DNA from: a virus
Virus record (IMG/VR): IMGVR_UViG_3300045733_000450
Location: 1 to 46,068 of that record
Length of the DNA: 46,068 nucleotides
Direction: 5' to 3' (one strand)
The position numbers and the translations under genes were made by a program. Position 1 is the first letter of the stretch; the number at the start of each line of letters is the position of its first letter. The notes beneath the pieces are model-generated. The model searched no databases. It saw nothing but the letters and a program-made list of their open reading frames with translations, and was not told the origin of the DNA. Of this stretch, positions 1 to 46,068 are shown piece by piece.

Positions 1-177
1 TCCCCTACGCCCTCGACCTTCGTTTTTGACGATCCCCAGACCGACGAGGAGAAATTTGCGAAGTTCAACAAGGACCTGGAGGACCAGGCCCTTGTCGGTC
101 AAAGAGCCTTTCAAGGGTCCATGGACCTTGGCCAAAAATCCAGGGACTACGAAGACTTGAACAAGAGTCTTGAGGAC
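1..177. repeat. Terminal overlap, copy 1 (closes the circle)
   Basis: Bases 1-177 equal 45892-46068 except at position 51 (G) versus 45942 (A), a synonymous Glu codon change. Both copies are in the same frame of the giant gene. The simplest reading is the overlap of a circular assembly or of a circularly permuted, terminally redundant genome, with the mismatch reflecting population variation. Confidence 0.9.
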
Positions 178-3100
178 CAGGCCCTTGTCGGCCAGCGCGC
201 CATGGACGAAAGTCTGGCCCTGGGGGATTCCTCCAGGCAATACGACGAGCAGCACCCCACTCTGCTCCGTGATGTTACGCAGCGGATCAAGAGCAAAGCG
301 CAGGTCGCTACCCACCTACTGACCGGAGCCCTGTCTTTCCCGATCGGGTTGGTTGCAGGGGCAGGCGAGGCTATCAAGGGCAAAGGATCTGAGGGGTTCC
401 AGACCGGTCAACAGCGGGTTGCCGAGCATTTCACTCCAAACCCGGAAGTTATAGGGGATCTGACCCCGGAGGCCGAGGGAACCCTCGGAGCCGTCGGGAA
501 GGTCACCGGAGCCCTGGCTAAGGCGGGTGGCGCCGTCACCGCCGCGATCGGCGGGGAGGGATGGAGAAAATTCGGGGAGGTCCTTGGAGACCTGTCCATG
601 ATCGGCCTGCCCATTGCCTTGAAGGGTGTAGCCGTCAAATACGTCGGAAAAGGGTTAAAAGAGAACCTTTCTACGCTGATCCGGGAGCATAACAAGCTTG
701 GAATGACCCCGGAAGACTCCGCCTTAATGGCCGAAGGCCTGATAAACCAGGCCCACGGGAAAATGGTCGAACGGGCCGGGAGGCCCTTGGACCTTTGGGA
801 ACAATGGAAGGCAAAACGAGGGTTTGCCAGAATGGGCGAAGAGCTGAAAGCCGCCCGAGAGGGCGGACCTTCCGAGCCCTTCAACCCTGAGTTTTCCGGA
901 GAGGTGGCCGGTCCGAAGCGGATCACCGGCCGGATGGACGCCTATACACCCGAAGCGGAGCCCGCTGGAAACGTCGTCGGCCCCCTGGAACCGTTCAGTC
1001 CGGAGATAGCCGGAGAAGTTCAAAGGGCTGGTAGACCCGCCTTGCCGGAACCGATCGATCCCACCCTTACCCGAGGGGAATTCCCCGGTAGGTTCCCAGG
1101 TCCCGCAGAAAGGTTTTCCCCGGACCTGGCCGGAGGAATCAGGCGGGTTCGCCAACTTCCTGCCTTGCCGGAGGCCCAGGGGTTTGACCTGGTAGGAAAG
1201 CCCTACGGGCCCCCTCCCCCGACAATTTCCGGGATGCGGTCAGCTCAATCTGCCCAGGGGTCCTTTATTTTCGATGACGGAATGCCGGATAAGGCCGTAG
1301 GAGCCTCCAGGACGGGCGATCTCCCCCCTGCGGCCACTACCACACCAGCTTTACCCCCTGCGCCAGGCCTACCCCCAAGCGCGGGGCCAGGCATATCCCC
1401 TGAAGTGGGAGCAAAACCCTTAATTCCTGCGCCGTCCATGACGCCTCCGCCAGCGTCAGGCGCACCCGGGGCCGCCCTGCCCAGCCCAGGGCCGGCCCCA
1501 ATGGCCGGGGGCGGGTCACCTCCTCCCGCTCCCGGCCAACCACCCACCGATCGGCCCATGGCCGAAGACGAGGTCTTCAAGTTTCCCAATGCCCAGGCTG
1601 CAGGAGACTACATTACGGCCAGGCGGATGCAGAAGGATGACACCATCTTCGAGCAGATAGTGGACTCAAAAACCGGGGAAGTGGTTGTCAGGAATAACAA
1701 TTTCCTTAGAAGGGACCCCATTGCCAGGAAGCTCCCCCCGGAGCCTCCAGTGACCCCGAACACCAACCCTACGGGGAAGGCGGTTATTCAAAATACAAGC
1801 GAATTCCCGGTCCTGCGGGTTCCGACCAACAAGATAGAGACAAACCCGAAGGAATTGCAGTTTAAGCTTGACGTTAACGCTTCGGGGGAACAAAAGCCCC
1901 TTCAGGGGGAATGGAACGACCTCGCTTCAGGGAATCTCTTGCTTTGGCAGGATAAAAGCGGTAAATTCTTCGTAGCCAACGGACACCATCGACTGGCCCA
2001 CGCCAAGCGCCTGGGAGTGCCGGAGGTCAACGCCCAAGTGCTGAAAGAGGCTGACGGTTTCAGCGTTATCGATGCGCGGAGAATCGCCGCCGAGTCAAAC
2101 ATCCTTGAGGGAAAGGGGACAATTTATGACCAAGCCGAATACTTCCGGACCCAGCCCGAATATACCCCCGACCTCGCCAGGAAGCGCGGGGTCGAAACCA
2201 AGGGGTATGCCATTGGAAAACTTGCCACAGGGAACACTTATGACCTTTTCCGAGATCGCAAGATTAAACCGGACGTCGCCGCCGAAATATCCACCGCCGC
2301 CCCCGGGAATGAAAGTCTCCAAGCCGTAGGGATCAAGTTCGCCCTGGGTCACCCTAAAGCCGATCCGGGAGAAGTCACCCACTTCATCAAGGCCATTGAG
2401 CTGCAAAGAGCCCCCCAAGCCAAGGGGGAGCAAGTGGATCTCTTTGGGTTTGATGACGCCGCTATCCGCTCCGCAGAGCAAGCCGCCAAGAAAGCCACAA
2501 AGATAATCAAAGACTTGCGCGAAGACCTGAACGCTATAAGCGGGGCCTCGCGACGTCCTGCCCGAGCCAAGAAGCTGGGGGTTGACGTCAGTAATCCCGC
2601 GGAGGTAATCGCCCGAGCCGACCAGCTCAAGGCCGAGATAGGGGCCTGGGAGAAGTGGTATAACGATCCGGCCAAGATTGCCCTGGTGGAGGGGTCCGGA
2701 GGGATGACCGTCAAAGAACCCCGCTGGGAATTCGGGGGGCGGATCCCCTTCGGGGCCGTCGAGGTCGTTCAACCTGGGGACATTAAGCGCGCAAAGCCGG
2801 ATAAAACGGCTCAAGGGTCCCTATTCGGATCTGGAGACCCCTACAAGGAAGCGACCGAGAAGCACCGGATCCAGTTTGAGAAGTTCAATAAGACCCGCGA
2901 AGACTACCGCGCCCGGCGTATCGGGGACGACGAATTTTTAGCCGCCAAAAAGGAATTTGACGCCGCCCAGCAGGAGCTTGACAAGGCCGAATCCTTGGAG
3001 AAAAAGCGGCCGGCGGAGCCTAAGAAGAAGGTCGAACAAGTGGGAATGTTCGACCAGCCAAAGGCGGAGCCGCCGAAGGTCGAGCCCAAGCGGGAGCCCT

Positions 3101-6100
3101 TCCCCGAGCCCCCCAAGAAGACCGCCGGAATTCCAGAAGACCCTAAATGGGCCGTCCCTGGGTCCGGGCGACCGGTCAAGGGTGAAATGGTTTGGGAGAA
3201 CCGGTTTTCCCGAGGAGCCTACGGGACCATTGACGGACCCATGGAGAAGTCCCCGGAGCGAGCCGTTGAAGCCCTGGCCGAGAAAAAAGCCAAGAGCGAA
3301 GAATTCAAGCTGGACACCGAGAAGATTGCCGCCGCCACCAAAAAGGTTAGCGCCGGGAACTACACGGATGAGGACATTAAGGCGCTCACCGGAAGGGGGT
3401 TGAATTCGAGTACCGCCGGAACCGAGAGCGTTCTAAGGGGCCTGGGGTTGAATTCTACGGAGGCCCGGAAGGTCATCAAAAGCATCTTTGAGGTTGGATC
3501 TACGAGCAACGGGACAATCCTTTACAGCGTGAGGGAGGCGATCGAGGCCGCTCGGAAGAAGGGATATTTTAGCCCGAAACCGACCCCGGAGTTTGGGAAG
3601 ACCGAGAAGCCCGTTGAAAAACCAAATGAGCAATTGGCATTGATCGAAAAAGGAGAAAAGCAGCTCACCCTTTTCGAGACCACGAAGGAATTCAAGGCCA
3701 TTCCGGACAAAGAGAAAATGGTCCCCCAGGGCGACGTCTGGAAGTGGGAAGCGTCTCATTACTTCAAGGACCATGAAAAGTTAGCCTCGAGCCGCACCAA
3801 GCCCATGCCGCCTTACCCTTGGAAAGAAGGGGACTGGACTATTGACAAGGATGTTGATCTTCCCTATGGACACCAGGTTGAAAAACTGGTCCGCCTGCCG
3901 GTCAAAGATCTTGTCTTGACCGAAGAGGATTATACCAAGTCCAACCAGGGGGGCCGCGGGGACGACGCCCGCCTTTACGCCGGGTGGATTAAGGAGGGGA
4001 AGGAGCCGCCGCCGATCTCCGTGGTGGAAACGGATTCCGGTAAAATGAGCGTTTCCAACGGACACCGCCGGGTAGCCGCCGCGAAGCTGGCCGGGCAGGA
4101 AACCATTCTGGCCTGGGTGTCCCCGAGGATGGAAGTAGGGAAGGCATACGGAGGGGGGCCGATTTATGTAGGCATGACCTACGAGGGCGCCACCCTGGGG
4201 CCGAAGGAAGCGGAGAAACAACGCGAAGCCCGGCGAGCGGATTCTGCCGGAAAAGACCTGAAGGCCGAAGCCGAAGCCCTGGGCGTCACCTACAAAGGCC
4301 CGTGGAAGTCCGGGGGCAAGATCCTCTTTGAAAATTTCACGGACAATCTGACCCATGGAGATTTTGTCGTCAAGCCGGGCGAGAGCATCAGGGATGCTTT
4401 GCTGAAGATGCGGAAGCCTTTCGTGGAAGCCGGTAATATCCCGGCCAGCGCCTTGAATCTGGCAGAGCCGAAGAAGGAATATGGTGCCGATAGGTACTAT
4501 GTTAAAAAAGAAAAATACTCGGAACTTCGAGGGGAGCATGGTCCATTCCATGACGTTTGGAGGATCTACGACAGGAAGACCGGGGAGAAGGCTTCCGGGG
4601 TTGATTACTCAAGTGAGGAAAGGTCCGGGTCCGTAGTCAAAAAGATGAACCAGGCGAAGGCCGAGCCGGTCAAGAACCTGGCGATCGTCCACAATATGAG
4701 CACCGACAACCTGCGTCACACGCTGAAGCTGGGGGGCCTGCCGGTCCCCAGTACCGCGGTAGTCAACGTGAACTATCCCAGCCTTGACAAATTCGGGGAG
4801 ATCACCCTTATCGCCCATCCTGATCGGCTGGGACCGGATGCCGGGAAAGAGAACAAATACTTTGACGCCGACATTTACAGCCCCCGCTACCCAAAAGCCA
4901 AATACCACCTGAAGGGGAACAGCTCTAAATATTTAATCGACTGGCTGAAGGCGGTCGAGGGCGAGATCCCGCCCGGCCGCGAAGGGCGATATTTCCCAGG
5001 TCCCTACGTTATCGAGTCCAACGTGGCTGACGTGGGCCTCTCCTTAGCGCTTAAAAGCGACGAGCCCCTTGTGGCCTATGCCTACCTCCAGGAGATCGGG
5101 AAGGTCCCCAAGGAGACGACCAATTCCTATGAAGGCCGGGGCCTGATATCCGCCGCGATCAAAGAAGCGGGCCATGACAATTTTGAAAAGTGGGTTGACG
5201 ATAAAACCCAAAAACTGCGGATAGAGACCGAAGGGAAAATCTGGAGTGGGATGGACCGCAACGGGAATTCGAAGTGGAGGGCCGAAACCCTTGACTTAGT
5301 GGTCCGGATGCTCAAGAAAGACCTCAAGGACGGGGAGGGGTTCAATTACGGAGTTCCGTCTATCCGGGCCAGCGTAGCCAAGCGCTTTCGTACACTGAAG
5401 CAAATCCAGGCCGATCGAGACCGGATAATATCTAAGCAGGATATGGATAAAATCAAGGACGAAACGGAGCAGGAGTTTGTCGACCTTGCCGGACAGGCCA
5501 CGGATCTACTCAAGCATAAAAGGGGGTTCGGGGACCTGGACACATTTTCCGAACACCTGAAGGAGGCTATTCAAACCCGCAATTTCTGGAAGGTCTTCGG
5601 GGATAAGAGCGAATACTATAATCCGGGGGTTGACATCGATGGACTAAGATCCTTCGTCAACAAGCTTCGGAATATGCCGACCGGATATTTCGAGGGGAAG
5701 ATTCAGCGAGCCGTCGGCCTGCACGAATTCGACCGGGCCGTGGTCCCGCACGATACGCCGGCGGACTTGGTTGCCGGGCTGAAGGCCAAGGGCCTGGAGG
5801 TCGAGACCTACAAGCGAGGGGATGAGCAGGCCCGCAGCGCCGCGGTCAAAAAATCGGCCGAGAAGGGCGGGGTGTTGTTCGAGCCGCAAAAGGAATATAA
5901 AGCTTCCGGTCCGATCTGGTTTTCCAAAATGGTCGAAGTGATCGAAAGAAAACTTCCGAATGCGGGGACCAAGGAAACCTACCTGGAGGCTATCCGTTCA
6001 TGGTCCGGGCAAGCGCTTAGCTGGCCGACCAAGAATTTTGTGGGTCCGGTTCATCCCACGCTTTCCGAGTTTACCAAGAACGAGCTGAAATGGTCCGGGC

Positions 6101-9100
6101 TGGAGGAATGGCTTGCGGAGCAAAAGGGCAAGATCACTAAGGCCGAAGTCCTGGTCTTCCTGAAGGCGAATCAGGTCGAGGTTAAGGAGGTTGTGAAGCA
6201 GCGCCAACCCCTTACCGTCCCCGAGCAATTACGTTACGGACATTTCTTGAACAATTCACATAAGCCGTGGAGCGAAAAAGACCACGCGGAATACAATGCG
6301 CTAAAAAAGAAAGCGCTCGCCGGTCAAACAAAGTTTGAACAGTACGTCCTTCCCGGAGGGGAAAATTACCGGGAAATCGTCTTAAGCCTGCCGGTAGAAA
6401 CAAAACCAATGGAGCAGTCTTTTAAAAGATGGAACGAAATCCGGGTATCATGGGACGAAAAACCGGGGACCATAGAGGAATACAATAAGGGGGTTCCAGC
6501 CGTCGCCTTTAAATCTTCCCACTTTGACGAGCCCAACACCTTTGCCCACGTCCGCGTCAATGACCGCACCAATGACAAGGGCGAGAAGGTCCTTTTTCTG
6601 GAAGAGGTTCAGAGCGATTGGGCGCTGGAGGGAAGGAAGAAAGGCTATGGAACGAATGAGCTTCCTCCCACGCTCAGGGTCGCCAGAACCAGAAAAGAGA
6701 AAATGCCAAACGGCGAGACAAGGTACTTTGTGGAGAGCGAGGGGGGGACGATCTTAGGGGTATCCGACACAGAAGAGAGGGCCGGGGATATCGCCGCCGC
6801 AACCATAGAAAGAGAAATGCGGGATTACCGGCGCAAAACTCCTCCCTTCCCCTTCGCTCAAAACTGGCACGAGGTCGCCATTAAGCGGATGCTGCGCTAT
6901 GCCGCTGAAAATGGATACGACCGCCTGGCCTGGATCAACGGGGAGGAGACGGCGAAGCGGTACGATTTGAGCAAGCACTTTAAGGAGGTTGCCTATCACA
7001 AATATAAAACTTCGCCAACCCCTGGGGTAGACGCGGGAACATATCATATTGAGGGAACTTTAATTAATGGGGAAATACACAACTTCGGAACATTCTCCGC
7101 GGAAGATCTTCCAAACGCGGTTGGAAAGGAAATGGCTGACCGGATCTTATCGGGGGAGGGCAGAGAGTCAACGAGCAGAATGATTATGGGCGGGGTCAGG
7201 GGCGCAAAAATACTTTCCGGCCTCGATCTCAAAATCGGCGGGAAATGGGCCTTCAATCTCTATGACAAGATGGTCCCCGAGTTTCTAAAGAAGTACGGTA
7301 AAAAATTCGGGGCCGGGGTCGAGCCCGCGGATCTGTACGTCAAGGATGATGTATGGCACGTTTGGGACGCGAAGGGGGAGCCCGTCGCTTATCGGGGTGA
7401 GGGATTCGCGACAATTAATTTCCCTACCAAGGGGGATGCAGCCACCGCTGCGCACGAGAATAAGGGAACATATTCCCATGCTCAGGGAGAGGTAGACAAA
7501 GACTTCCAGTCCGTCCCTATCACTTCCGCCATGCGTTCGGAGGTCATGACTAAGGGTCAAGCGCTTTTTGAGCGCCACAAGGAATACGCCGCGATCCGCG
7601 CCGAACTGTTAAAGCAGCGCAACCATCAATACGACTGGCTTTCCCCGATCGATTTGAAGATTGCCGTCGAAGCCCTGGCCGAGCTGCGAAAGGTCGAAGC
7701 CCTGCCGATTAAGGGCCAAGGCGCCACGGCCAAGACCATAGGGAAAGCCATTTCTACCGAGCTGATTCACAAAGGCCGCATAGACTTCGAAGGCCGGGAA
7801 GTGAAAGACATCCGGGAAATGGTAGGCCTCTTTCAGATTTTCCGAAATCCGAAGTTTGAAACCTCCCGATGGATTTTTGTCAAGGACCTGCCCAATGGAA
7901 AAATGAAGATCATGGGCCATTATGGGACCACTTCGAAGCTTCCGGGCGAAACCAGGATTTTCAAATCCGAAGATGGAGGCCGCAACCGTTACGAGCTGGA
8001 GCGCCGCAAGGAGCGTATGGGCGCGGACGGCTATTACTCTACACACAATCACCCTTCCGGAATTATCAAAGATTCTCCGGAAGATCGGAACGCAACCGGG
8101 AGCCTTTACGGAGTTGACCAGAACGGAAAAGCGATCGCTCCGGGGTTTCGCGGGATGATCATTATCGACCATGAAAAATATGGGTTTATGACCCATGGGC
8201 TAAAAAGGGGACAGCTCAACTATACCGCCGAAGATATCAGCACCGGGAAGGAAGATCCATTCCTGAGGGCCGAGATCGATCATAATTTTCTTGGGACTAC
8301 GGTCATTAGTCCGAACGATCTGGCCGGGGTGGCGGTACGCCTGAACCATGAGAAGAATTTCAGCACCGTTCTTTTTTTGAGTACAAGCCTGGCGATCCGA
8401 GGGATTCACGACGTGCATGACAGTGTTATCAAGCGCGGGGACTTCAGCGGATATTTGCGAAACCGGGCGCGTGAATTCGGGTCGAGCCGGGCCGTCATCG
8501 TTACGGAAAATAAAGATCTGTCCGGAAGGTTGGTCGATCTTTTCAAAAAGCACATTCTTTTGGAGTTTAATCTGGTTTCTAAGGATGGTATTTTCTCAGC
8601 CGCCAATGAGCTGGGCAGGCCGGATCCCAACCCTGACCTTTGGATGGGCAAAAAAGGCCGCGTCTCTACCGTGGCCTCTCCCGCGGTCGCCTATGGCGCT
8701 TCCAAGGCCAAGGCCTATATCCAGAAAACAAAAGAACTGGTCAAGTACAGCGGGGACCTTCAGGAAGATTATTACCGTCTCCGGAATAAATCCGAGATCG
8801 ATCGCATCCTGACCAAGCAATATTTGAAGGCCGCGAGGGGAACGCCCAGCGACTACCGGGCCATTTATAGCTGGATCGAAGACCCGAAAGAGCCCATTAC
8901 CGTCGAGCAGAAAAAGCTCTACACCGACGAGATCGAGCCCATCCGCACGGAACGAAACGCCCTTTTCTCGAAACTCCGGAATGAGGGGATTCCCGTCGAG
9001 GGAGAGGGCTACGTCCCCCGCTTTGTGGCGGACCGGGGCGGGTTCTTCGACCGCCTGATTAACGGCATGAAAACCTCGAACGCCGGGGCCGGGCTATTGA

Positions 9101-11274
9101 GGAGGACCGCCCAGTCTTTTAACCCCAGGGTGATGAAGGCCATTGTGGACGCGCAGGGTAACCGCCGGATAGTGGCCATTAAGAAGGAAACGGTGGTCGG
9201 CTTTGACAACGGGAAGCCTGAACTTCTCGGCAAAACCCAGCGGGCCACGCCCAAGCGTACCGAGTGGTTTGACAAGCTGGTGATGGAGAAATTGGAAGCC
9301 CTGGCCAAAGACCTGGGCATTTCACACGAAAGAATATTGACCGGGAAAGGTCTACGCGGTCGCCGGCTGGGGGTCTCTTTCCCCGGAGGGATCAAGACCA
9401 AGCACGCAACCCCGGAGGACGTCATCATCCACGAAATCGGCCACCAGATTGACGATCGCTACGACATCAACACGTCTTTCTTCGGGGGATCGGACAAAGC
9501 CGGAATCGAAATGAGACGGATCTTGAAGAAGGAGATCCGCGCCCTGGCTGATTTGAGATATGAGGGCCAGCAGGTTAGCAGCTATTACCGGAAGTATGTC
9601 CGGAAGGGATCGGAAAAGGCCGCGGTCATGTTCCAAGCCTATCTTCACGCGCCGCAGGCTTTCCGGTCTACCGCCCCGAACGTGTACCAGAAATTCGTTG
9701 AGTTTTTAGGCCGACACCCGGAGACCCGGCCCATCCTGGATATAAAGCCGTCCCTGGTTTACGGGGACAAAACTATCGGGGGAACCCCGGACTATACCAA
9801 ATTTATCGACAAAAACGGTAAGACCTGGACGATCGGGGAGGCGACCACCAAGGAGATCGAGGCCAACACAAAACTGAAGTACCACAAGAATGCTCTACTG
9901 AACGAGATCATTACCTATAACGAATTGAAGAAGGTCGATAGGGCCATTGAATACCTGGAAAATTTGAAGACCGATCCGGAATTTTCTAAATTGGCGATCA
10001 AGCTGGGAACGCAGAATATCCCCGATGGATACAAGACTACCGTCTTGCCGCAGCTTCGAGGCTACGCTTTCCCGGATCGGATCGCGGAGACCTTTGACAC
10101 GTTTTACAAGCACGTTTCCCAGGGGATCATGGAGCCGTCCAGCGCCTACGCCCAGATAAACAAATTTCTCCGGAATGCCATTTTCTTTAATCCCTTGATC
10201 CATATCCCTAACATCACGGTCCACGCGATCGTTAACCGGGGGTCCGTGGCCCTGGCCAACCCGGTAGCTTACCCGCGAGCGGTCAAGGCCGGGTGGAGGG
10301 CGATCAAGGCCACCCTGGCCATGAACGATGATTATATCGCCGCGCTCGACCAGGGGGCTGGCTTGCTTTATTCGGGCGTTCAGAATCAAAACCTCTACAA
10401 GCTGATGCTGGAAAAAATGGGTTCGGAGTTGACGGCCAACCCGAACTTATTGCATAAAATCGGCCGAGCTATCGGGTATGTAAACCCGGCCCATTTGATC
10501 AAGGCGCTTTACAAGTTCTCCTCTCAAGCGACGTGGGCGGTCAACGATATCGCCACCCTCCAGGCGGTCTTTGAAGAAATGGGCCGAGGGGTTCCCATGG
10601 ATACAGCCGTCGAGGACACGGCCAAGCACATTCCTAATTACCGGATCCCGGCCCGGGTCATGAATAGTACGACCATTTCAAAGCTGATGCGACCGGACTC
10701 CGGAATAACGATGTTCGGGGCCTATCACTACGGAGCCCTGAAGTCCTACGGGGAAATGATAAAGTCCCTCCTGGGGAAAGTCCCCTTGAAAGAGCGGGTC
10801 GGGGCCATGGATAAATTGGCCATGTTGGGAATTGTGACGTTGATCCTCTACCCCATCCTGGACGAAATCGCCCAACAGCTCACCGGCAAGAAGGACGCTA
10901 AATTCAGGCGAGCCGGAGCGGCCACCTTCCCGTACAAAACGTGGCAACTGGCCAAGGGGGAAATCTCTTTCCCCGCTTGGGTGCAATCGGTATTGACCCC
11001 GAGCATAGGGCTAAGCTTAGGAATGTCTTTTTATATGGGCAGAGATCCACGAACGGGTCGTCTGATGCCGCCCGGAGAAGTAGCGTTAAACGCGATCGCG
11101 CCGATATCCCAGGCCAAAAGAATAGCCGAAGGGAAGACGTCTGCTTCCGCGGCCGGAGAATCATTGTTCGGAATCAGCCAAGGCCTTAAAAAGCCCGTCC
11201 GTCCGAGTACCGGTACGACATTTAATAAATTCTTTGGAATCCGTTCAGCGCACAAAACGCGAACGAACTGGTGA
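1..11274 (+). CDS. Giant polyvalent protein (3,777 aa when joined across the contig ends)
   Basis: The frame is open at base 1 and continues from the ATG at 45832 through the terminal overlap, giving 3,777 residues (full-length numbering: residue 21 is at base 1). Modules seen: hydrophobic Gly/Ala-rich N-terminus; Pro-rich linker about 430-530; ParB-like domain about 624-704 with VANGHHRLAHAKRLG at 678 and a DdrB-like tail; second ParB-like domain about 1311-1397 (VSNGHRRVAAAKLAGQ at 1371); a domain with VHNMS...LGGLPVPS...SPRYP about 1583-1657; WSGLEEWL and EEVQSDW...WHEVAIKRMLRYA...KKFGA domains about 1984-2461; RadC-like MPN/JAB motif HNHPSG (H2702, H2704, D2715); YVPR region about 3024; zincin HEIGH (H3164, E3165, H3168); C-terminal membrane segment about 3626-3648. 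The combination matches the polyvalent proteins described by Iyer and Aravind, thought to be injected with DNA to counter host defences (DarB/DdrB-like). Its place after internal-virion-like genes fits ejection with the genome (inference). Confidence 0.85.
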   Translation, partial: SPTPSTFVFDDPQTDEEKFAKFNKDLEDQALVGQRAFQGSMDLGQKSRDYEDLNKSLEDQALVGQRAMDESLALGDSSRQYDEQHPTLLRDVTQRIKSKAQVATHLLTGALSFPIGLVAGAGEAIKGKGSEGFQTGQQRVAEHFTPNPEVIGDLTPEAEGTLGAVGKVTGALAKAGGAVTAAIGGEGWRKFGEVLGDLSMIGLPIALKGVAVKYVGKGLKENLSTLIREHNKLGMTPEDSALMAEGLINQAHGKMVERAGRPLDLWEQWKAKRGFARMGEELKAAREGGPSEPFNPEFSGEVAGPKRITGRMDAYTPEAEPAGNVVGPLEPFSPEIAGEVQRAGRPALPEPIDPTLTRGEFPGRFPGPAERFSPDLAGGIRRVRQLPALPEAQGFDLVGKPYGPPPPTISGMRSAQSAQGSFIFDDGMPDKAVGASRTGDLPPAATTTPALPPAPGLPPSAGPGISPEVGAKPLIPAPSMTPPPASGAPGAALPSPGPAPMAGGGSPPPAPGQPPTDRPMAEDEVFKFPNAQAAGDYITARRMQKDDTIFEQIVDSKTGEVVVRNNNFLRRDPIARKLPPEPPVTPNTNPTGKAVIQNTSEFPVLRVPTNKIETNPKELQFKLDVNASGEQKPLQGEWNDLASGNLLLWQDKSGKFFVANGHHRLAHAKRLGVPEVNAQVLKEADGFSVIDARRIAAESNILEGKGTIYDQAEYFRTQPEYTPDLARKRGVETKGYAIGKLATGNTYDLFRDRKIKPDVAAEISTAAPGNESLQAVGIKFALGHPKADPGEVTHFIKAIELQRAPQAKGEQVDLFGFDDAAIRSAEQAAKKATKIIKDLREDLNAISGASRRPARAKKLGVDVSNPAEVIARADQLKAEIGAWEKWYNDPAKIALVEGSGGMTVKEPRWEFGGRIPFGAVEVVQPGDIKRAKPDKTAQGSLFGSGDPYKEATEKHRIQFEKFNKTREDYRARRIGDDEFLAAKKEFDAAQQELDKAESLEKKRPAEPKKKVEQVGMFDQPKAEPPKVEPKREPFPEPPKKTAGIPEDPKWAVPGSGRPVKGEMVWENRFSRGAYGTIDGPMEKSPERAVEALAEKKAKSEEFKLDTEKIAAATKKVSAGNYTDEDIKALTGRGLNSSTAGTESVLRGLGLNSTEARKVIKSIFEVGSTSNGTILYSVREAIEAARKKGYFSPKPTPEFGKTEKPVEKPNEQLALIEKGEKQLTLFETTKEFKAIPDKEKMVPQGDVWKWEASHYFKDHEKLASSRTKPMPPYPWKEGDWTIDKDVDLPYGHQVEKLVRLPVKDLVLTEEDYTKSNQGGRGDDARLYAGWIKEGKEPPPISVVETDSGKMSVSNGHRRVAAAKLAGQETILAWVSPRMEVGKAYGGGPIYVGMTYEGATLGPKEAEKQREARRADSAGKDLKAEAEALGVTYKGPWKSGGKILFENFTDNLTHGDFVVKPGESIRDALLKMRKPFVEAGNIPASALNLAEPKKEYGADRYYVKKEKYSELRGEHGPFHDVWRIYDRKTGEKASGVDYSSEERSGSVVKKMNQAKAEPVKNLAIVHNMSTDNLRHTLKLGGLPVPSTAVVNVNYPSLDKFGEITLIAHPDRLGPDAGKENKYFDADIYSPRYPKAKYHLKGNSSKYLIDWLKAVEGEIPPGREGRYFPGPYVIESNVADVGLSLALKSDEPLVAYAYLQEIGKVPKETTNSYEGRGLISAAIKEAGHDNFEKWVDDKTQKLRIETEGKIWSGMDRNGNSKWRAETLDLVVRMLKKDLKDGEGFNYGVPSIRASVAKRFRTLKQIQADRDRIISKQDMDKIKDETEQEFVDLAGQATDLLKHKRGFGDLDTFSEHLKEAIQTRNFWKVFGDKSEYYNPGVDIDGLRSFVNKLRNMPTGYFEGKIQRAVGLHEFDRAVVPHDTPADLVAGLKAKGLEVETYKRGDEQARSAAVKKSAEKGGVLFEPQKEYKASGPIWFSKMVEVIERKLPNAGTKETYLEAIRSWSGQALSWPTKNFVGPVHPTLSEFTKNELKWSGLEEWLAEQKGKITKAEVLVFLKANQVEVKEVVKQRQPLTVPEQLRYGHFLNNSHKPWSEKDHAEYNALKKKALAGQTKFEQYVLPGGENYREIVLSLPVETKPMEQSFKRWNEIRVSWDEKPGTIEEYNKGVPAVAFKSSHFDEPNTFAHVRVNDRTNDKGEKVLFLEEVQSDWALEGRKKGYGTNELPPTLRVARTRKEKMPNGETRYFVESEGGTILGVSDTEERAGDIAAATIEREMRDYRRKTPPFPFAQNWHEVAIKRMLRYAAENGYDRLAWINGEETAKRYDLSKHFKEVAYHKYKTSPTPGVDAGTYHIEGTLINGEIHNFGTFSAEDLPNAVGKEMADRILSGEGRESTSRMIMGGVRGAKILSGLDLKIGGKWAFNLYDKMVPEFLKKYGKKFGAGVEPADLYVKDDVWHVWDAKGEPVAYRGEGFATINFPTKGDAATAAHENKGTYSHAQGEVDKDFQSVPITSAMRSEVMTKGQALFERHKEYAAIRAELLKQRNHQYDWLSPIDLKIAVEALAELRKVEALPIKGQGATAKTIGKAISTELIHKGRIDFEGREVKDIREMVGLFQIFRNPKFETSRWIFVKDLPNGKMKIMGHYGTTSKLPGETRIFKSEDGGRNRYELERRKERMGADGYYSTHNHPSGIIKDSPEDRNATGSLYGVDQNGKAIAPGFRGMIIIDHEKYGFMTHGLKRGQLNYTAEDISTGKEDPFLRAEIDHNFLGTTVISPNDLAGVAVRLNHEKNFSTVLFLSTSLAIRGIHDVHDSVIKRGDFSGYLRNRAREFGSSRAVIVTENKDLSGRLVDLFKKHILLEFNLVSKDGIFSAANELGRPDPNPDLWMGKKGRVSTVASPAVAYGASKAKAYIQKTKELVKYSGDLQEDYYRLRNKSEIDRILTKQYLKAARGTPSDYRAIYSWIEDPKEPITVEQKKLYTDEIEPIRTERNALFSKLRNEGIPVEGEGYVPRFVADRGGFFDRLINGMKTSNAGAGLLRRTAQSFNPRVMKAIVDAQGNRRIVAIKKETVVGFDNGKPELLGKTQRATPKRTEWFDKLVMEKLEALAKDLGISHERILTGKGLRGRRLGVSFPGGIKTKHATPEDVIIHEIGHQIDDRYDINTSFFGGSDKAGIEMRRILKKEIRALADLRYEGQQVSSYYRKYVRKGSEKAAVMFQAYLHAPQAFRSTAPNVYQKFVEFLGRHPETRPILDIKPSLVYGDKTIGGTPDYTKFIDKNGKTWTIGEATTKEIEANTKLKYHKNALLNEIITYNELKKVDRAIEYLENLKTDPEFSKLAIKLGTQNIPDGYKTTVLPQLRGYAFPDRIAETFDTFYKHVSQGIMEPSSAYAQINKFLRNAIFFNPLIHIPNITVHAIVNRGSVALANPVAYPRAVKAGWRAIKATLAMNDDYIAALDQGAGLLYSGVQNQNLYKLMLEKMGSELTANPNLLHKIGRAIGYVNPAHLIKALYKFSSQATWAVNDIATLQAVFEEMGRGVPMDTAVEDTAKHIPNYRIPARVMNSTTISKLMRPDSGITMFGAYHYGALKSYGEMIKSLLGKVPLKERVGAMDKLAMLGIVTLILYPILDEIAQQLTGKKDAKFRRAGAATFPYKTWQLAKGEISFPAWVQSVLTPSIGLSLGMSFYMGRDPRTGRLMPPGEVALNAIAPISQAKRIAEGKTSASAAGESLFGISQGLKKPVRPSTGTTFNKFFGIRSAHKTRTNW
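874..1140 (+). repeat. Three EPFSPE-type degenerate peptide repeats in the giant protein
   Basis: The pattern E-[PR]-F-[NS]-P-[ED]-x-[SA]-G-[EG]-[VI] occurs at 874-906, 988-1020 and 1108-1140, spaced 38-40 codons, in the low-complexity linker before the first ParB-like domain. The copies differ at the DNA level, so the peptide appears to be what is conserved. Function unknown; a short binding or docking motif is possible. Confidence 0.55.
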
Positions 11275-11278
11275 TAAA

Positions 11279-13198
11279 ATGATCGGCAACCTGCTATCGG
11301 ATCAACCCATAACTCCTAAGCGAACGACCAGCATGGTACCGCCCGGAATGGGGGATCTGAACTATCTCCAGAGCCTTATCGCGGGGATCACAAATCAGGA
11401 ATTAAACACCACGTCGAGCCCGACCTGGGTGGGGGGTACGTTCACAGGGTTGACCGCCAGCCTGCCGATCGTCACCAACGCGAGCAAGGCCCTGGCCAGC
11501 GTTTCCTATGCCACCTTCAAGGCCAGCCTGGCGATCGCGCAGGCGGATGTTTCTGGGTTGACGACCGCTTCAAGCCCGACCTTCGCCGGGTTGACACTAA
11601 CGGCCTTTTCCGGATTTGTGAAAGCCGCGGCGGGAGTCCTGAGCGCTGGGAGTATCGCCGCCGGAGATCTTCCCGCCCACGTCCTGGATGGTGCCATACA
11701 TACCGTATCCGGGTTGACCGGGGGCCATTTTCTGAAAGCTACGGGGGCCACAACGTTCGGTTTCGCCGCGCACGGCCTGACTTATTCCGATGTGGGGGCC
11801 GAGGCCAACGGGGCCGTGTCCACTCATAATAGCTCCGCCTCCGCTCACGGATTCACCACCGCTGGAAAAGCCCTGGCCAATTTGGCCAATCCTTCGGCAA
11901 TCACCTTCCCGCGCGTTAACGCGGACAATACGGCAACGCTGCTTTCGGCAAGTGATTTTCGAACGGCAATCGGCGCGGGTACATCGAGTTTTGATGGAGC
12001 GTATAGTTCACTTTCAGGGAAGCCTGCCCTTGGCACAGCATCAGCGCAGGACGTGGGCTATTTCGATTTGGCCGGGGTAGCCAGCGGGGCCGTTGCCGCC
12101 CATGCGGCGCTGATTACCGGGGTTCATGGCCTGATATTCACAGCGGGCAAAGCCCTGACGTTGCAAAAAAGCATGACCCTGACCGCTGCCGACGATACCG
12201 GAGTTTACACCTTCCCGACCGGGACAAAGACCCTCTTGGCCACCACGGGTAGCCCTGCCGCTCTGGTGATCGCTTCGCAGGCCACGGGGGATCTGCTTTA
12301 TGCCAGTTCGGCCACGGCTTGGTCCAGGCTGGCCCTGGGGGCCGCAGGTAAGGCTCTGGTGGTCAATGCCGGGGGGACTCTCCCGGAGTGGGGAACGGTC
12401 TTGACCAACCCCATGGACGCCGCCGGCCAACTGATCTACGGCGGGGCCGCTGGTGCGCCAACCAAACTGGCCGCAGGGGCGACGACCGATATCCTGGTCG
12501 GAGGAGGAGCAGCCGCGCCGGTTTGGACTGCGGCGACGGGGACCGGGGTACCGGTGAGGGCTGGAAGTCCGACCTTTACTGGAGTTCTTACCACTCCACA
12601 ACTTTCAATTCCTAAATCATCGACCTACAATTCAGAGGGAACCTACGGTCTCTATATCGCAGATCCAACCAACGATACAGGGGTTCAGTTTGGTGCTGAT
12701 ATTACTCTTCACGCATCTTTTATTCAGTCGATGGATCCAGGAACATCCTATACTACCCGCCCTCTTTTGCTTCAACCAAACGGTGGCTATGTGGGAGTTG
12801 GTGGAGTATCGGCTCCCAACGCACCGTTATCAGTTATGGTGGCCGCAGGGGCCTCGGAAACCGTAGCCTTGAGTCTTTACCCATCTACTTCAGGTGGACT
12901 ACCAGCCTATAGTTTTGGTATGGGACCAACAAATACGGAGGGCTTTGTTTCTTATAGGTCTGGAACTGGGTCAAGTGCGACATTTGGTCATAAGTTTTTA
13001 GTTAACAACGTGGAGATTATGCGTATTGATGGGAATGGTAGGGTAGGAATTAAAAGTACTGCACCCAAAAGCCCCTTGCAGGTCATTGGGTTGACAAACT
13101 ATGCCAGTGATGCGCTCGCGGCCGCTGCGGGACTGACATCAGGGGCATTCTATCGGCATGATTTTGGTGGGGTTGGTTATGTCTGTGCGGTTCCCTAA
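11279..13198 (+). CDS. Tail fibre / receptor-binding-like virion protein
   Basis: This 639-aa protein is built of phage-fibre-type Gly/Ala/Ser/Thr-rich repeats, such as SSPTFAGLTL and the TGVYTFPTGTKTLLATTG segment. Its C-terminal part ends in SDALAAAAGLTSGAFYRHD, a pattern common at the ends of phage tail proteins. I chose the ATG at 11279, four bases after the stop of the giant gene, over a TTG at 11234 inside that gene. From about 12600 the DNA becomes AT-richer with different codon choice, so residues about 440-639 look like a separately acquired host-recognition domain. The family assignment rests on composition and position; the receptor is unknown. Confidence 0.6.
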   Translation: MIGNLLSDQPITPKRTTSMVPPGMGDLNYLQSLIAGITNQELNTTSSPTWVGGTFTGLTASLPIVTNASKALASVSYATFKASLAIAQADVSGLTTASSPTFAGLTLTAFSGFVKAAAGVLSAGSIAAGDLPAHVLDGAIHTVSGLTGGHFLKATGATTFGFAAHGLTYSDVGAEANGAVSTHNSSASAHGFTTAGKALANLANPSAITFPRVNADNTATLLSASDFRTAIGAGTSSFDGAYSSLSGKPALGTASAQDVGYFDLAGVASGAVAAHAALITGVHGLIFTAGKALTLQKSMTLTAADDTGVYTFPTGTKTLLATTGSPAALVIASQATGDLLYASSATAWSRLALGAAGKALVVNAGGTLPEWGTVLTNPMDAAGQLIYGGAAGAPTKLAAGATTDILVGGGAAAPVWTAATGTGVPVRAGSPTFTGVLTTPQLSIPKSSTYNSEGTYGLYIADPTNDTGVQFGADITLHASFIQSMDPGTSYTTRPLLLQPNGGYVGVGGVSAPNAPLSVMVAAGASETVALSLYPSTSGGLPAYSFGMGPTNTEGFVSYRSGTGSSATFGHKFLVNNVEIMRIDGNGRVGIKSTAPKSPLQVIGLTNYASDALAAAAGLTSGAFYRHDFGGVGYVCAVP

Positions 13199-23825: not shown

Positions 23826-24026
23826 ATGAGACTTGAACAAGCCATAGAAACACGTTGCCCATTTACTCTAACCATTCCAGGAACGGAGGATGAGTATAAT
23901 GGGGTCGATTGCATAGCGGCCAACTGCATGTCCTGGGTAGATGAAGGCAAGCGCTACACCCAAGAGGGGCCGGTAGAATGGGGTTATTGTGCGCTGATCT
24001 TTGGGGGGGCCGATGCCACTAAATAA
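23826..24026 (+). CDS. Small Cys-rich protein (66 aa)
   Basis: AGAAAGGAA precedes the ATG. Cysteines in CPF, DCIAANCMSW and GYCAL suggest a structural metal site. Small proteins with the 'C...C.W......GYC' layout are common partners of phage DNA-modification or radical SAM genes. The C-terminal codons overlap the radical SAM gene by 14 bases. Confidence 0.5.
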   Translation: MRLEQAIETRCPFTLTIPGTEDEYNGVDCIAANCMSWVDEGKRYTQEGPVEWGYCALIFGGADATK

Positions 24027-24678
24027 AGTCAAACCAGGAAGCAATATGTACGATTGGGTGACGCACACCCATAACCACCTTGCCGGGGCCTGTCCCCATG
24101 CCTGTACCTACTGCTCGACCCAGGACATGGCCCGGAGGTTCCCCGTTATGGCCGAGCGGTACAGCGGCCCGCCCAGGATAGTGGAGAAGGAGCTACGGGT
24201 AAATTATGGGCTACCATGGAGACCGGAAGATTCCTTCAACTGGCGAACGGACAAAGCCATTTTCGTGGAAAACTGTAGCGATTTATTTGCGGAAGGGGTT
24301 TTAGGCGGTTGGATTTCAGAAGTCCTTTACCACTGCAACAAATACCCCCAAAATACCTATGTTTTCCAAACAAAAAATCCGGCCCGGGTCAGGACTTATT
24401 TGATTGAATTCCCGCCCCGCTACTTGATCGGGACCACGGCGGAGAGCAATCGGATGTATTCAGGAAACGCTCCCCGACCATCCGCGAGACTCCGGGATCT
24501 GGAAAAGATAGGCTGCGATCCGAGTAAAAAATTCATAACAATCGAGCCGATTTTAAAATTCGATTTTTCCTTTTTTTACGACTTTCTACTGGCTACCGGA
24601 GTCAAGAAAATCTACGTCGGTGCCGACAGTAAGGGCCACGGCCTCCCGGAGCCAACGGGGGGGAGATTTGGGCGCTAA
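24013..24678 (+). CDS. Radical SAM protein, truncated in frame by a -1 shift
   Basis: The ATG at 24013 gives CPHACTYC with Cys27, Cys31 and Cys34, the CxxxCxxC site for a 4Fe-4S cluster that cleaves S-adenosylmethionine. Later motifs (VENCSDLFAEGV, YVFQTKNPARVRTY, LIGTTAESNRMY, ITIEPIL) match a phage radical SAM family of the DUF5131/Gp37-like kind. The zero frame ends ...LPEPTGGRFGR at 24678, but the homologous tail continues in the -1 frame from a GGGGGGG run at 24657-24663 (EIWALICALRGAGKT) to 24761, giving about 249 aa. The substrate is unknown. Either a sequencing indel, programmed frameshifting or a mutation explains it. Confidence 0.7.
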   Translation: MPLNKVKPGSNMYDWVTHTHNHLAGACPHACTYCSTQDMARRFPVMAERYSGPPRIVEKELRVNYGLPWRPEDSFNWRTDKAIFVENCSDLFAEGVLGGWISEVLYHCNKYPQNTYVFQTKNPARVRTYLIEFPPRYLIGTTAESNRMYSGNAPRPSARLRDLEKIGCDPSKKFITIEPILKFDFSFFYDFLLATGVKKIYVGADSKGHGLPEPTGGRFGR

Positions 24679-25111: not shown

Positions 25112-25476
25112 CCATGACACCGAAAGAAGTACACGCGGCCCTTTCCAGGGGCAGAAAGGTCAAGCCCGAGACCGAATGGACCAGCTTCGTCAAGCAGCGC
25201 CTAAAACTTTCCTTTGGAAGACATTGCCGTCTGGTCAAGATCCGGGGTGGATTGGGCCAGGAAAGGGGTGTGGCCGACATCTTGGGGGTGATCCGGGGCC
25301 AAGCTATAGCCCTGGAGCTTAAAGCTCCTGGGGGACGGCACAAGGTCAGCGACGAGCAAGGGGCTTTTCTGGCTTCCTGGACCGCGGCCGGGGGGTATTC
25401 GAAGGTGATCGATTCCCTGGAGAGCCTTGAAGAATTGATCCGTAATTTCGGAGCGGTTCAGGGACGTATGTTTTGA
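25105..25476 (+). CDS. VRR-NUC domain nuclease (123 aa)
   Basis: The middle of the protein (GVADILGVIRGQAIALELKAPG, then HKVSDEQGAFL) is the PD-(D/E)XK signature of VRR-NUC proteins: Asp in ADI, then Glu-x-Lys in ELK, then the Q helix. The family includes Holliday junction or flap nucleases, and many phages carry a stand-alone copy. Gene position between an ASCH protein and a methyltransferase, with overlapping ends on both sides, suggests one operon-encoded module. Confidence 0.8.
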   Translation: MVTMTPKEVHAALSRGRKVKPETEWTSFVKQRLKLSFGRHCRLVKIRGGLGQERGVADILGVIRGQAIALELKAPGGRHKVSDEQGAFLASWTAAGGYSKVIDSLESLEELIRNFGAVQGRMF

Positions 25477-26453
25477 TCATCCAAGGTGACTGCCAGGAAG
25501 TTCTGCCCACGTTCGAAGCGGATTCCATTCAGATGGTTTGCACGTCTCCCCCCTATTGGGGGTTGAGGGATTACGGATGTGACGGCCAGGTGGGCCTCGA
25601 GCGGACCCCGGAGGAATACGTTTCAGCGCTGGTTAGGATCTTCCGGGATGTCTGGAGGGTGCTGAGAGGTGACGGTACCGTGTGGCTTAACCTGGGCGAC
25701 AGCTATGCGTGTGATAGGTATGGCAGCGGAGGAACGGACCCGAGTAAGAGGACAATAACGGGAGGCCACAGGAATATAGACGAAGGCCAAAATTTCCGGG
25801 GCGGACTGAGAATGCACGGACTCAAGCCCAAGGACCTCGTGGGGATTCCCTGGAGGGTGGCGCTCGCGCTTCAGGCGGACGGGTGGTATCTCCGTCAGGA
25901 TATCATTTGGCACAAGCCTAACCCCATGCCTGAGAGCGTTACGGACAGATGCACGAAGGCCCACGAGTATATTTTCTTGCTTTCCAAGAGCGAGAGGTAT
26001 TTTTATGATTCGGATGCAGTGAAGGAACCAGCAGCATTCCGGCAAGACAGTAGGCCCCGGATAAAATATGCCTGGGGCCGGGCCATTGATGGTTCCATAA
26101 ACGATATCCGGGCGGGGTTTGGACTGAAGATCTCCAGAGAGAAGACGAGATATATCGAGACCGAGGAAGAGGCCTTAACCCGGAACCGCCGGTCTGTTTG
26201 GTCGATAACCTCGAAGCCGTTCGATGGAGCCCACTTTGCCACCTTCCCGCCCGAGATCCCGGAGATCTGCATCCTGGCCGGAAGCCGGAAGGGGGATACG
26301 GTCCTGGATCCATTTCTCGGGGCCGGGACTACCGGCTTGGTGGCCGAGACCTTGGGGCGTAATTTTGTCGGAATCGAGATGAGCCCGGTTTATGTCAAAA
26401 TGGCACAAAAAAGGATCGCCTTAGCAACGGCTCAAGGGAGGTTATTCCCTTGA
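25473..26453 (+). CDS. DNA methyltransferase, beta class (N4-cytosine or N6-adenine)
   Basis: The catalytic motif TSPPYWGLRDYG (about residue 24) precedes the cofactor motif DPFLGAGTTG (about residue 277), the order of beta-class enzymes. Length 326 aa is typical for a solitary DNA methyltransferase. The start is a TTG at 25473, where TTGA overlaps the stop of the nuclease gene, and the predicted N-terminus MIIQGDCQEVL fits the family. No restriction endonuclease partner is adjacent, so the likely role is protection of phage DNA against host restriction, or gene control. The recognition sequence cannot be read from the protein. Confidence 0.85.
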   Translation: MIIQGDCQEVLPTFEADSIQMVCTSPPYWGLRDYGCDGQVGLERTPEEYVSALVRIFRDVWRVLRGDGTVWLNLGDSYACDRYGSGGTDPSKRTITGGHRNIDEGQNFRGGLRMHGLKPKDLVGIPWRVALALQADGWYLRQDIIWHKPNPMPESVTDRCTKAHEYIFLLSKSERYFYDSDAVKEPAAFRQDSRPRIKYAWGRAIDGSINDIRAGFGLKISREKTRYIETEEEALTRNRRSVWSITSKPFDGAHFATFPPEIPEICILAGSRKGDTVLDPFLGAGTTGLVAETLGRNFVGIEMSPVYVKMAQKRIALATAQGRLFP

Positions 26454-27383: not shown

Positions 27384-28030
27384 AGATGGTTGACTCTTCC
27401 CTTGAATTCCCTGTCAGATTCGCGGACGGGGTTCACCGAATACCGTGGCCTCACCGTGTAGCTTGGGAGGAGTACGAAAATATTTGTGGATCACCCGGTC
27501 AATCAGCTTATGCCTTTCAGGTCTATCTTTCGACCTTCGAGGTTCTACCGGTAATAGCCACCAGGCCTATCCGGGATCAATGGGAAATTGAAAACAGGTT
27601 AGCAGCCGAAAAACTGGAGGCCGAAAGACTGGAGGCCGAAGAGAAGGCCAAAAAAGAGCGACAACGGAAGGCGGTTGAGGATGAATTAAGAAGAATTTCC
27701 CGAATGAGAGACACCCAGATGTACCTTGAGGGAAAAAATAGAGCCAAAGAGCTTAAAAAAGGCTTAAAAAATAGGCTTATAGGAGAAATGGAGAGGATAG
27801 AAATCGGTATTGCCGAAATGAAAGGAAAACTTTCCCCTACCTATTCAGGCTACGCCAGAGAAGATTATCCTCCATGGCCGGCCTACTGCGAATTAAGTAT
27901 TGAAAAAATTAAGGAAAACGCCCGATGGTTTTTAGACCATGGCTTTAGCTGTGTGGATACACATCATCGTACGGGGCTAAGTATAGAATATTTAACCAAA
28001 TTGAAAGGAGAGGGTGTTCATGATGTTTAA
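27380..28030 (+). CDS. Coiled-coil protein after the initiator (216 aa)
   Basis: I chose the ATG at 27380 (ATGA overlap with the initiator stop) over earlier in-frame starts inside that gene. The protein has a long charged helix (about 70-135: EKLEAERLEAEEKAKKERQR, then RAKELKKGLKNRLIGEMERI) flanked by globular ends, with WPAYCELSIEKIKENARWFL and HGFSCVDTHH near the C-terminus. In lambda this place is held by the helicase loader P, but no similarity to P or DnaC is visible. It is AT-richer than the structural genes. Function unknown. Confidence 0.5.
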   Translation: MKMVDSSLEFPVRFADGVHRIPWPHRVAWEEYENICGSPGQSAYAFQVYLSTFEVLPVIATRPIRDQWEIENRLAAEKLEAERLEAEEKAKKERQRKAVEDELRRISRMRDTQMYLEGKNRAKELKKGLKNRLIGEMERIEIGIAEMKGKLSPTYSGYAREDYPPWPAYCELSIEKIKENARWFLDHGFSCVDTHHRTGLSIEYLTKLKGEGVHDV

Positions 28031-44552: not shown

Positions 44553-45830
44553 ATGGGATACGCGTCTAAATACGCATCGATGTATGATGAGCAGCCCTAT
44601 CCGTTCGATCCCCGGCAACCCTTTGACCCGGAGAATATTCCCCCGCCGCCTCCAGGCTACGGCGAGAAGGGGGGGAATTACCTCTTGCCCGACGAGGTAA
44701 ACCCCGCGCCGGCCTATCTCCCCCAGAATCCGGACGGGAGCACTTCCTTTCCCCAACAGTTTGGGCCTCCACCGCCGACCTTCTACGCCACTAACGTACC
44801 CGATACGGCCAAGAAGTGGGGAGGGCAGGGGCAGGACTATACTTTTCTGGCCGAGAGCCCCGCCGCCGCGAAGACCGCCGAAGGTCTACCGGGAGACCCG
44901 ACCGTGATGAAGGGCTACGACCCGGCCCTGGATCAAAAGACGATCGGTCCCGAGCCCAAGCCGGGAGAGCTGGACGAAATGGGCCAGTTCAAGACCTTTT
45001 GGGGGCACTACGTCAACGATAAATACAAGGGACGCGACCCCCTGACCGTCAATCCTTCCGAGGAAGGAATGAAGGCCGAGGAAGCAGCCCGGAGCAAATA
45101 CGCCCTGGAGCTGATGAATCGAGATCCGGGAAGCGTAGACTACAAGAAGTATGAAAAGCTGATCACCGAGGCCAAGACTGACGCCATGAAGAAAGCGGAA
45201 TGGGAACGCAAAATGGGCGAAGAGGACCAAAAAATGGCCCATGGATTTTTCCAGACCAAGCTGACCGACCAGCGAAGAATCTCCGCAGAGGAGCGGAAGC
45301 AGAAGGGAATTGACTCCCTGACCAACGTCGATAAAGCCCAAAAATTCACCATGAACATGATGAGCGGGGCCAAGGCCCCGGAAAACTTTGAAATGCCGCC
45401 GGAAGATAGAGTCAAGGCCCTTTCAGACAAAACCTTTCCCCTGGACGGATACCGGTTAAAGCCCATAGCGCTTCAAAGCATCAACCGAGAGCGGGAGCGG
45501 GCCGGGTTACCGTTGATTGTGGAAAAGCCGGTAGACGTTCCCATGGTTGAAACCAGGAATTTTACCCCATGGGGTCCAAAAATCCCTTTTACTACGCCCA
45601 CGGCCTCTACCCCGGTCACAAAATATAGCTATGAGGAAGGCCCGGCGCCCGCACCGGGACGGAATGGAATAAGACAGCCGAGGCTAAGCACGGGAGAAGC
45701 CACACAACCGGAAGGGCCGGCCCCCGGGAGCCTTCCCGATCCCCGATCAAACAAGGGACGGTCCGGGACGGAATCAACCACGGGAAAGCGATACCGCAGC
45801 GACGGGAACCAGTGGTTGGAGGTCAAATAA
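44553..45830 (+). CDS. Second putative internal virion protein (425 aa)
   Basis: I chose the ATG at 44553 (site AAAGGAGAA) over the long frame from 44286, whose first 89 codons run through the previous gene. The protein has a Pro-rich N-terminal tract (PPFDPENIPPPPPGYGE), helical middle (EEAARSKYALELMNRDPGS, KKAEWERKMGEEDQKMAHG) and Pro/Thr-rich C-terminus. It stops one base before the ATG of the giant gene, so expression is likely coupled. No enzymatic motif seen. Confidence 0.55.
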   Translation: MGYASKYASMYDEQPYPFDPRQPFDPENIPPPPPGYGEKGGNYLLPDEVNPAPAYLPQNPDGSTSFPQQFGPPPPTFYATNVPDTAKKWGGQGQDYTFLAESPAAAKTAEGLPGDPTVMKGYDPALDQKTIGPEPKPGELDEMGQFKTFWGHYVNDKYKGRDPLTVNPSEEGMKAEEAARSKYALELMNRDPGSVDYKKYEKLITEAKTDAMKKAEWERKMGEEDQKMAHGFFQTKLTDQRRISAEERKQKGIDSLTNVDKAQKFTMNMMSGAKAPENFEMPPEDRVKALSDKTFPLDGYRLKPIALQSINRERERAGLPLIVEKPVDVPMVETRNFTPWGPKIPFTTPTASTPVTKYSYEEGPAPAPGRNGIRQPRLSTGEATQPEGPAPGSLPDPRSNKGRSGTESTTGKRYRSDGNQWLEVK

Positions 45831-45831
45831 A

Positions 45832-46068
45832 ATGGCCTTTGTCTTCGACGACGAGCCCCGGGGCGGACAGGTAAGCGGAGGTTCTAAGCTGTCCCCTACG
45901 CCCTCGACCTTCGTTTTTGACGATCCCCAGACCGACGAGGAAAAATTTGCGAAGTTCAACAAGGACCTGGAGGACCAGGCCCTTGTCGGTCAAAGAGCCT
46001 TTCAAGGGTCCATGGACCTTGGCCAAAAATCCAGGGACTACGAAGACTTGAACAAGAGTCTTGAGGAC
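45832..46068 (+). CDS. 5' end of the giant polyvalent protein (residues 1-79)
   Basis: The ATG at 45832 lies one base after the stop of the preceding gene. From codon 21 (45892) the sequence repeats the window start, so this is the true amino terminus of the gene continuing at base 1. The first residues read MAFVFDDEPRGGQ, and FVFDD recurs at residues 26-30, with a related FIFDD further on. A short internal duplication (N-K-D/S-LEDQALVGQRA) follows around residues 45-60 and 76-90. No signal peptide is present. No clear Shine-Dalgarno sequence precedes the ATG, and coupling to the upstream gene is likely. Confidence 0.85.
   Translation, partial: MAFVFDDEPRGGQVSGGSKLSPTPSTFVFDDPQTDEEKFAKFNKDLEDQALVGQRAFQGSMDLGQKSRDYEDLNKSLED
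45892..46068. repeat. Terminal overlap, copy 2
   Basis: Second copy of the 177-base end overlap, with one mismatch to bases 1-177. It ends inside a 20-base sequence that itself occurs twice in the gene (79-98 and 172-191). Confidence 0.9.

Follow-up and report, generated by a model that had tools for sequence, protein, structure and literature searches.

A single gene that takes up about a quarter of a phage genome raises the question of what so long a product does, and when such a gene runs over the ends of a contig it must also be asked whether it is one gene at all. Both questions are posed by IMG/VR record IMGVR_UViG_3300045733_000450, a 46,068-bp contig of an uncultured virus that was analysed at full length (hereafter the window). 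Here we establish the reading frame, separate the parts of the encoded giant protein that are constant among relatives from those that are replaced, and weigh what the protein might do. The giant gene, its features and both its neighbours lie on the plus strand.

The reading frame across the record ends

Bases 1-177 of the window repeat bases 45892-46068 except for one mismatch at base 51 (a 177-bp overlap of 99% identity). The joined frame encodes 3,777 aa (418 kDa, pI 9.1) with a stop codon at its end alone, and the same 3,777 residues result whether 45832-46068 is joined to base 178 onward, as had been proposed in a preliminary description made from the sequence, or 45832-45891 to base 1 onward. 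The 5' part (45832..46068, residues 1-79) begins with an ATG that has a GGAGGT ribosome site eight bases upstream; the remainder (1..11274, of which bases 1-177 are the repeat) encodes residues 21-3777 and the stop. Third-position GC is high throughout the frame. The gene amounts to 24.7% of a 45.9-kb circle, in agreement with the quarter estimated beforehand, and annotation of the linear contig indeed yields a partial gene, either an open-ended frame of 3,757 aa or a gene of 3,717 aa that starts at base 121.

Relatives described below support the join in two ways. In L012, L013, L014, L016 and L017 the giant frame starts about 20 bases or less from the end of the upstream gene, a spacing that the window reproduces only with the start at 45832. 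Furthermore, the relatives have two copies of a short motif near the start, and in the window the first copy of FVFDD (residues 3-7, 45838..45852) lies before the overlap while the second (residues 27-31, 45910..45924, also 19-33 in the overlap) lies inside it. That assembly fused two distinct genes of a contig that is in truth linear is very improbable: the mismatch, the classification of the record as linear in IMG/VR (perhaps due to that mismatch) and a 45-bp internal repeat within and beside the overlap would fit such an artefact, but they are set against 177 bp at 99% identity, a frame preserved across the join, a strong ribosome site, and the match with the relatives in both upstream spacing and doubled motif. 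Moreover, ORF 1-11274, open at its 5' end, has 3,757 residues by itself, join or no join. The overlap is either a true direct terminal repeat or an assembly overlap, and the gene continues in both cases. The giant gene is real and complete, as the preliminary description had claimed.

It is located in the block of late virion genes, together with and on the same strand as the genes for TerL, a P22-type portal, the major head protein and an SU10-type adaptor. Its upstream neighbour (44553..45830, 425 aa) has no strong family match and is, judged by position, possibly an internal virion or ejection protein. The downstream neighbour, directly behind the giant gene (11279..13198), has no Pfam match, and its composition and position make it a probable tail fibre or appendage.

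Elsewhere in the window a 65-bp piece of the portal gene (31674-31738) recurs 3.4 kb upstream (28232-28296, 95% identity) inside a small ORF (28014-28355), to which it adds AGTAFLRTFIETDLGRLI; this is either a recent duplication or an assembly chimera. The non-structural region encodes a DUF5131 protein (24001-24678) and an N6/N4 DNA methylase (25473-26453).

A constant C-terminal core and a doubled N-terminal motif

Comparison with relatives delimits a conserved C-terminal core of about 830 aa (residues 2921-3748, 8701..11184) that is present in ten other proteins. With the last 556 residues as query eight viral contigs were found, and a profile added three more, one viral and two from bacterial MAGs. 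Identity to the giant protein is 27-58% in the relatives, whose matches lie mainly in the core, with L014 and L017 matching ParB-type domain 1 too; the core-holding frames measure 661 to 3,055 aa, some being partial: L006 and L011 are truncated by contig ends and L019 has only part of the core. The middles differ, with LPD22 in L012, PBECR1 in L014, and 2H phosphoesterase and GGDEF matches in L017; we count these differences among the ten sequences for an interchangeable payload.

No match to the core was obtained by tblastn in 50,697 phage records, nor in L001-L003, the nearest relatives of the window by TerL, which may be fragments. The TerL of the window found no match in the core-bearing records, L001 and L003 matching as positive control; its major head, upstream and tail proteins found none there either, in searches that had no positive control for these three. 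The P22-type portal gave one match only, weak and below cut-off. Because neither TerL nor the major head protein matched, the core is, as far as sequence comparison can tell, common to phages whose head and packaging genes are not detectably related.

A Kyte-Doolittle scan locates a hydrophobic helix in the core at residues 3626-3644 (10816..10872), and such a helix is kept in six of the nine core proteins scanned. A membrane segment had been announced for the very end of the chain; the segment exists, but about 130 residues short of the terminus. The structure model of the core is weak (pLDDT 61) and mostly helical, and Foldseek comparison with the PDB gave chance-level matches only.

Some of the core-bearing contigs have features of their own. 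In L020 (8531-19986) the giant gene lies in a prophage-like stretch of a Patescibacteria MAG contig, accompanied by a papain-like peptidase with a peptidoglycan-binding domain, an integrase and then a Mur ligase gene downstream. In L019 (3-11740), a contig of an Omnitrophota MAG, the core fragment (a 661-aa ORF) is accompanied by the 3' end of gyrA and by genes for an integrase and a prim-pol/D5 protein; binning error is possible for both MAGs. The giant protein of L017 (3653-12817) contains a 2'-5' RNA ligase-like (2H) domain that weakly matches the anti-CBASS protein Acb1, adjoined by the GGDEF match, and in L015 (14016-18095) a second very long frame of 1,360 aa is found shortly downstream of the core-bearing gene.

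At the N terminus the doubled FVFDD falls within the first 35 or so residues; a third copy, FIFDD, is found at residues 442-446 (1264-1278), and residues 42-56 and 73-87 form a second, imperfect repeat (DNA repeat D2). A short motif is doubled close to the start of the nine core proteins whose N terminus is readable, the giant protein included: FVFDD in the latter, LDLSQIP in L012, A-K/E-DFFG in L013, DIFDQVA in L014, LDQFV in L015, VDVP with flanks in L016, TLDPSEV in L017, FWD in L020 and ILxAIExQVG in L007. The two copies of one protein are alike while those of different proteins are not, and this pattern suggests a shared partner, different from phage to phage. In composition shuffles six of the nine motifs reached p < 0.01, the others being L014 (0.05), the giant protein (0.054) and L020 (0.13, where the best-scoring repeat is a different one than FWD); with the nine combined and set against further windows within these proteins, p was 2.7e-6. 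Other frames of these loci did not contain the patterns. This evidence is strong, yet not clean, because the doubling had been noticed by eye ahead of the test and start codons are uncertain in L014, L015 and others. Taken alone the motif of the giant protein is borderline, and the case rests on the family.

DIFDQVA also occurs as a doubled motif in L104, whose giant is of a different type. A doubled motif in every giant phage protein was considered and rejected: 4 of 32 other listed giants with a QSDW domain (see below), L104 and three more, pass a score of 36, and the giants of phages Ab9 and X14 fall below it. Two further hydrophobic segments of the giant protein, at residues 122-140 and 214-232 (304..636, Kyte-Doolittle scan), are missing in most relatives.

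The middle of the chain, the zincin and the class of the protein

Residues of about 300 to 600 are proline-rich and of low complexity. ParB-type domain 1 (residues 624-760, 1810..2220) has an NGHHR motif, matches phrog_21 (6e-11) and is 33% identical to Shewanella phage X14 over 294 columns; ParB-type domain 2 (residues 1315-1395, 3883..4125) has an NGHRR motif and matches phrog_1033 (1.3e-7), TIGR00180 (0.0013) and, weakly, KorB. No ParB model of Pfam matched the giant protein; the PHROG matches and motifs support the two ParB-like domains that had been proposed. The sole Pfam match above cut-off was absent from the preliminary description and is a PBECR5 domain (residues 1571-1763, 4651..5229; PF18814, 1.9e-19, 71 bits against a cut-off of 25), whose RNase activity is predicted only, likewise in the literature. 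It is followed by an unnamed domain (residues 1745-1980, 5173..5880; phrog_22978, 1.2e-20) for which there is no Pfam model. A PBECR5-related stretch with this domain behind it is also found in Ab9 and BF1-TP2.

A RadC-like JAB motif, E...HNHPSG-x4-S-x2-D, is situated at residues 2650-2760 (7888..8220). It scores below the curated cut-off of PF04002 (E 0.0026, 18.1 bits against 22.1) and matches phrog_10276 at 0.011, while the RadC signature HxHPSG...S-x2-D is satisfied by HNHPSGIIKDSPED at residue 2702. The motif had been read as a RadC-like MPN/JAB peptidase; the motif is intact, but RadC is not known to be an established peptidase. Single-sequence patterns returned no relatives of the middle third and JAB region from viral contigs, and neither the core nor the QSDW profile nor the JAB region had a useful match in PDB sequence searches. 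Iyer et al. (PMC5512222) state that RadC is found only in polyvalent proteins of conjugative elements, prophages being mentioned elsewhere in the same paper; with a RadC-type domain, a polyvalent protein of a phage would depart from that statement.

What we call the QSDW domain (residues 2043-2465, 6067..7335) has an invariant H, R, EE-x-QSDW and R. An alignment of distant relatives was too variable as a query, and a DNA pattern of EE-x-QSDW was used instead, which matched at least 120 stretches in uncultured phage contigs. The domain is present at E < 1e-10 in at least 120 frames (loci L028-L147); among the matches listed many frames are of 600-900 aa and others are giants of up to 3,446 aa. 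It is a very frequent domain in the proteins of uncultured phages. It has no Pfam match over its length, and the libraries searched contain a model neither for it nor for the core. AlphaFold2 models most of residues 2060-2470 confidently (blocks mostly >85), and the best PDB fold neighbours of the model are largely GNAT acetyltransferases; at E 0.03 and a probability of at most 0.38 these only suggest a GNAT-like fold, which is compatible with how helices and strands follow one another in the second half. In BFVD the model has 19 matches at E ≤0.001; the described ones come from uncultured Caudovirales phages, and some of them bear the annotation ART-PolyVal or large polyvalent.

The MtfA-like zincin (residues 3105-3287, 9253..9801, with HEIGH at 9430-9444) lies inside the core and matches PF06167 at 5.2e-5, with 23.4 bits below the curated cut-off of 26.2. 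Alignment to MtfA (chain 9srw) pairs HEIGHQID / GSEKAAVMFQAYL with HEVAHKLD / AECFAVLSEYF, so that HExxH and the downstream Glu, which we take to be the ligand in MtfA, are retained, in favour of the HEIGH zincin suggested earlier. An Asp three residues beyond HExxH, as in the giant protein, is a feature of phage-type peptidases (Iyer et al. 2017, PMC5512222).

Polyvalent proteins are single chains that unite two or more domains with disparate biochemical activities (Iyer et al. 2017, PMC5512222). The giant protein has PBECR5 above cut-off, two ParB-type domains, and a zincin and a RadC-like domain whose motif residues are intact despite scores below cut-off, all on one late-gene chain as in the phage type, and the polyvalent theme of Iyer and Aravind invoked for it fits. 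The several large-polyvalent-protein domains also ascribed to it were not recovered: no LPD model matched in the Pfam scan, such domains being frequent but not required in the class. Nor is the length unusual, as had been thought, given isolates X14, Ab9 and BF1-TP2 with 2,740, 2,839 and 3,633 aa and uncultured relatives of 3,055-3,446 aa; the domains stand in a new order, but members of the class typically have their domains shuffled. The giant protein is a polyvalent protein, ordinary in size and place, and exceeds the ordinary in its portable core, doubled motif and optional zincin.

Phage-type polyvalent proteins (P1 DdrB, DdrB-like ParB, PBECR) share with it ParB-type, PBECR and zincin domains on a late-gene protein, and differ from it in the conserved core with an optional zincin insert, the RadC-like JAB, the doubled motif and the lack of LPD matches. 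The giants of X14 (Shewanella), Ab9 (Acinetobacter) and BF1-TP2 (Bacteroides) are of similar size, the first two in an equivalent place among late genes near a tail appendage gene; X14 shares ParB-type domain 1, Ab9 and BF1-TP2 share PBECR5 and the domain behind it, and none has the core. N4 virion RNA polymerase gp50 (Schitoviridae, 3,500 aa) is likewise encoded in a late block beside small ejection proteins and has a hydrophobic N-terminal part, a separate C-terminal part and one HExxH site, although the zincin context differs. The Pfam scan found no RNA polymerase family in the giant protein, and homology of the core to N4 vRNAP was rejected, as there is no sequence match to gp50. Polymorphic toxins, too, combine a constant part with a replaceable payload; the giant protein works like them and is no member, since its constant part is instead C-terminal and phage-borne and no immunity gene was seen.

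Cleavage, conduit or delivery

The zincin is present in the giant protein, L012 and L006. Of the nine other cores that extend over its site, seven are without it (L019, too short to judge, is left out). Iyer et al. (PMC5512222) propose for P1 DdrB that the chain is a polyprotein cut by its zincin into separate effectors. Such cutting, in the head or in the cell, would suit a zincin that sits inside the core with all three ligand positions, but HExxH occurs nowhere in the chains of two of the longest relatives (2,705 and 3,055 aa), and L015 keeps the zincin beginning VMSGLEKLASDLGISHERT while the rest, active site included, is gone, so that loss is likely at least there. In a tree L013 is near the giant protein and L014 beside L006, both L013 and L014 being without the zincin; the node joining the giant protein and L013 has a support of just 0.25. 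Since most core proteins miss the zincin, cutting by it would not be required in the core family, which argues against a general need for such processing and makes the polyprotein reading improbable for the giant protein as well.

Alternatively, the protein might mainly be an ejection conduit, its core and hydrophobic segments forming or anchoring a channel through the envelope and the enzyme-like domains being secondary, a role that has been proposed for P22 gp16 and gp20 and in part for N4 vRNAP. The N4 precedent, the place of the gene among internal virion genes, the core helix in six of nine proteins and the mostly helical core model are all in keeping with this. Conduit proteins are expected to co-evolve with their own tail machine, yet no capsid, TerL or upstream gene common to the core-bearing phages and the genome of the giant was detected, and the payload is swapped as modules with motif residues intact; we hold a conduit as the main role to be unlikely.

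The reading we prefer, and consider probable, is that of a virion-carried, injected polyvalent protein with interchangeable payloads, belonging to a probably short-tailed phage of P22 type. It would be made late, packed into the virion and enter the cell with the DNA or just ahead of it. The doubled FVFDD may dock the chain to a phage-specific partner, the hydrophobic segments near both ends may contact the membrane, and the core could be the constant carrier or host-facing module. The middle would be the payload, with two ParB-type nuclease/NTPase domains, the PBECR5 RNase, the RadC-like JAB and the QSDW domain, whose fold is possibly acyltransferase-like, and would cut or modify host nucleic acids and proteins before the phage genes switch on. 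The zincin would be an optional extra that may cut the giant chain or a host protein.

N4 vRNAP is a giant ejected chain of 3,500 aa with a likely membrane-spanning N-terminal domain and a separate C-terminal domain; according to unpublished work that PMC4496689 cites, the N-terminal domain serves injection and the C-terminal domain encapsidation. As the core is shared across phages without shared head genes, the opposite assignment is suggested for the core family, with the variable N-terminal motif for docking in the virion and the core facing the host or membrane. This is the least certain step of the proposal.

Tentatively, and with more doubt than confidence, we suggest that the core is an undescribed portable delivery module passed between phages whose capsid and packaging genes are unrelated, that the doubled motif is the lineage-specific part fitting the chain to its virion, and that QSDW is a new, widespread family of enzymes whose GNAT-like fold is modified. 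If the suggestion is true, the core would carry any payload fused ahead of it into the host. Many short-tailed phages may seize the cell in the first minutes by means of giant injected proteins. Zincins of this kind have been proposed as a general processing step of polyvalent proteins, a proposal for which it matters that most of the core family has none. As the constant end and the doubled motif can be separated from the payload by comparison, the docking and delivery signals would be testable by fusion and deletion.
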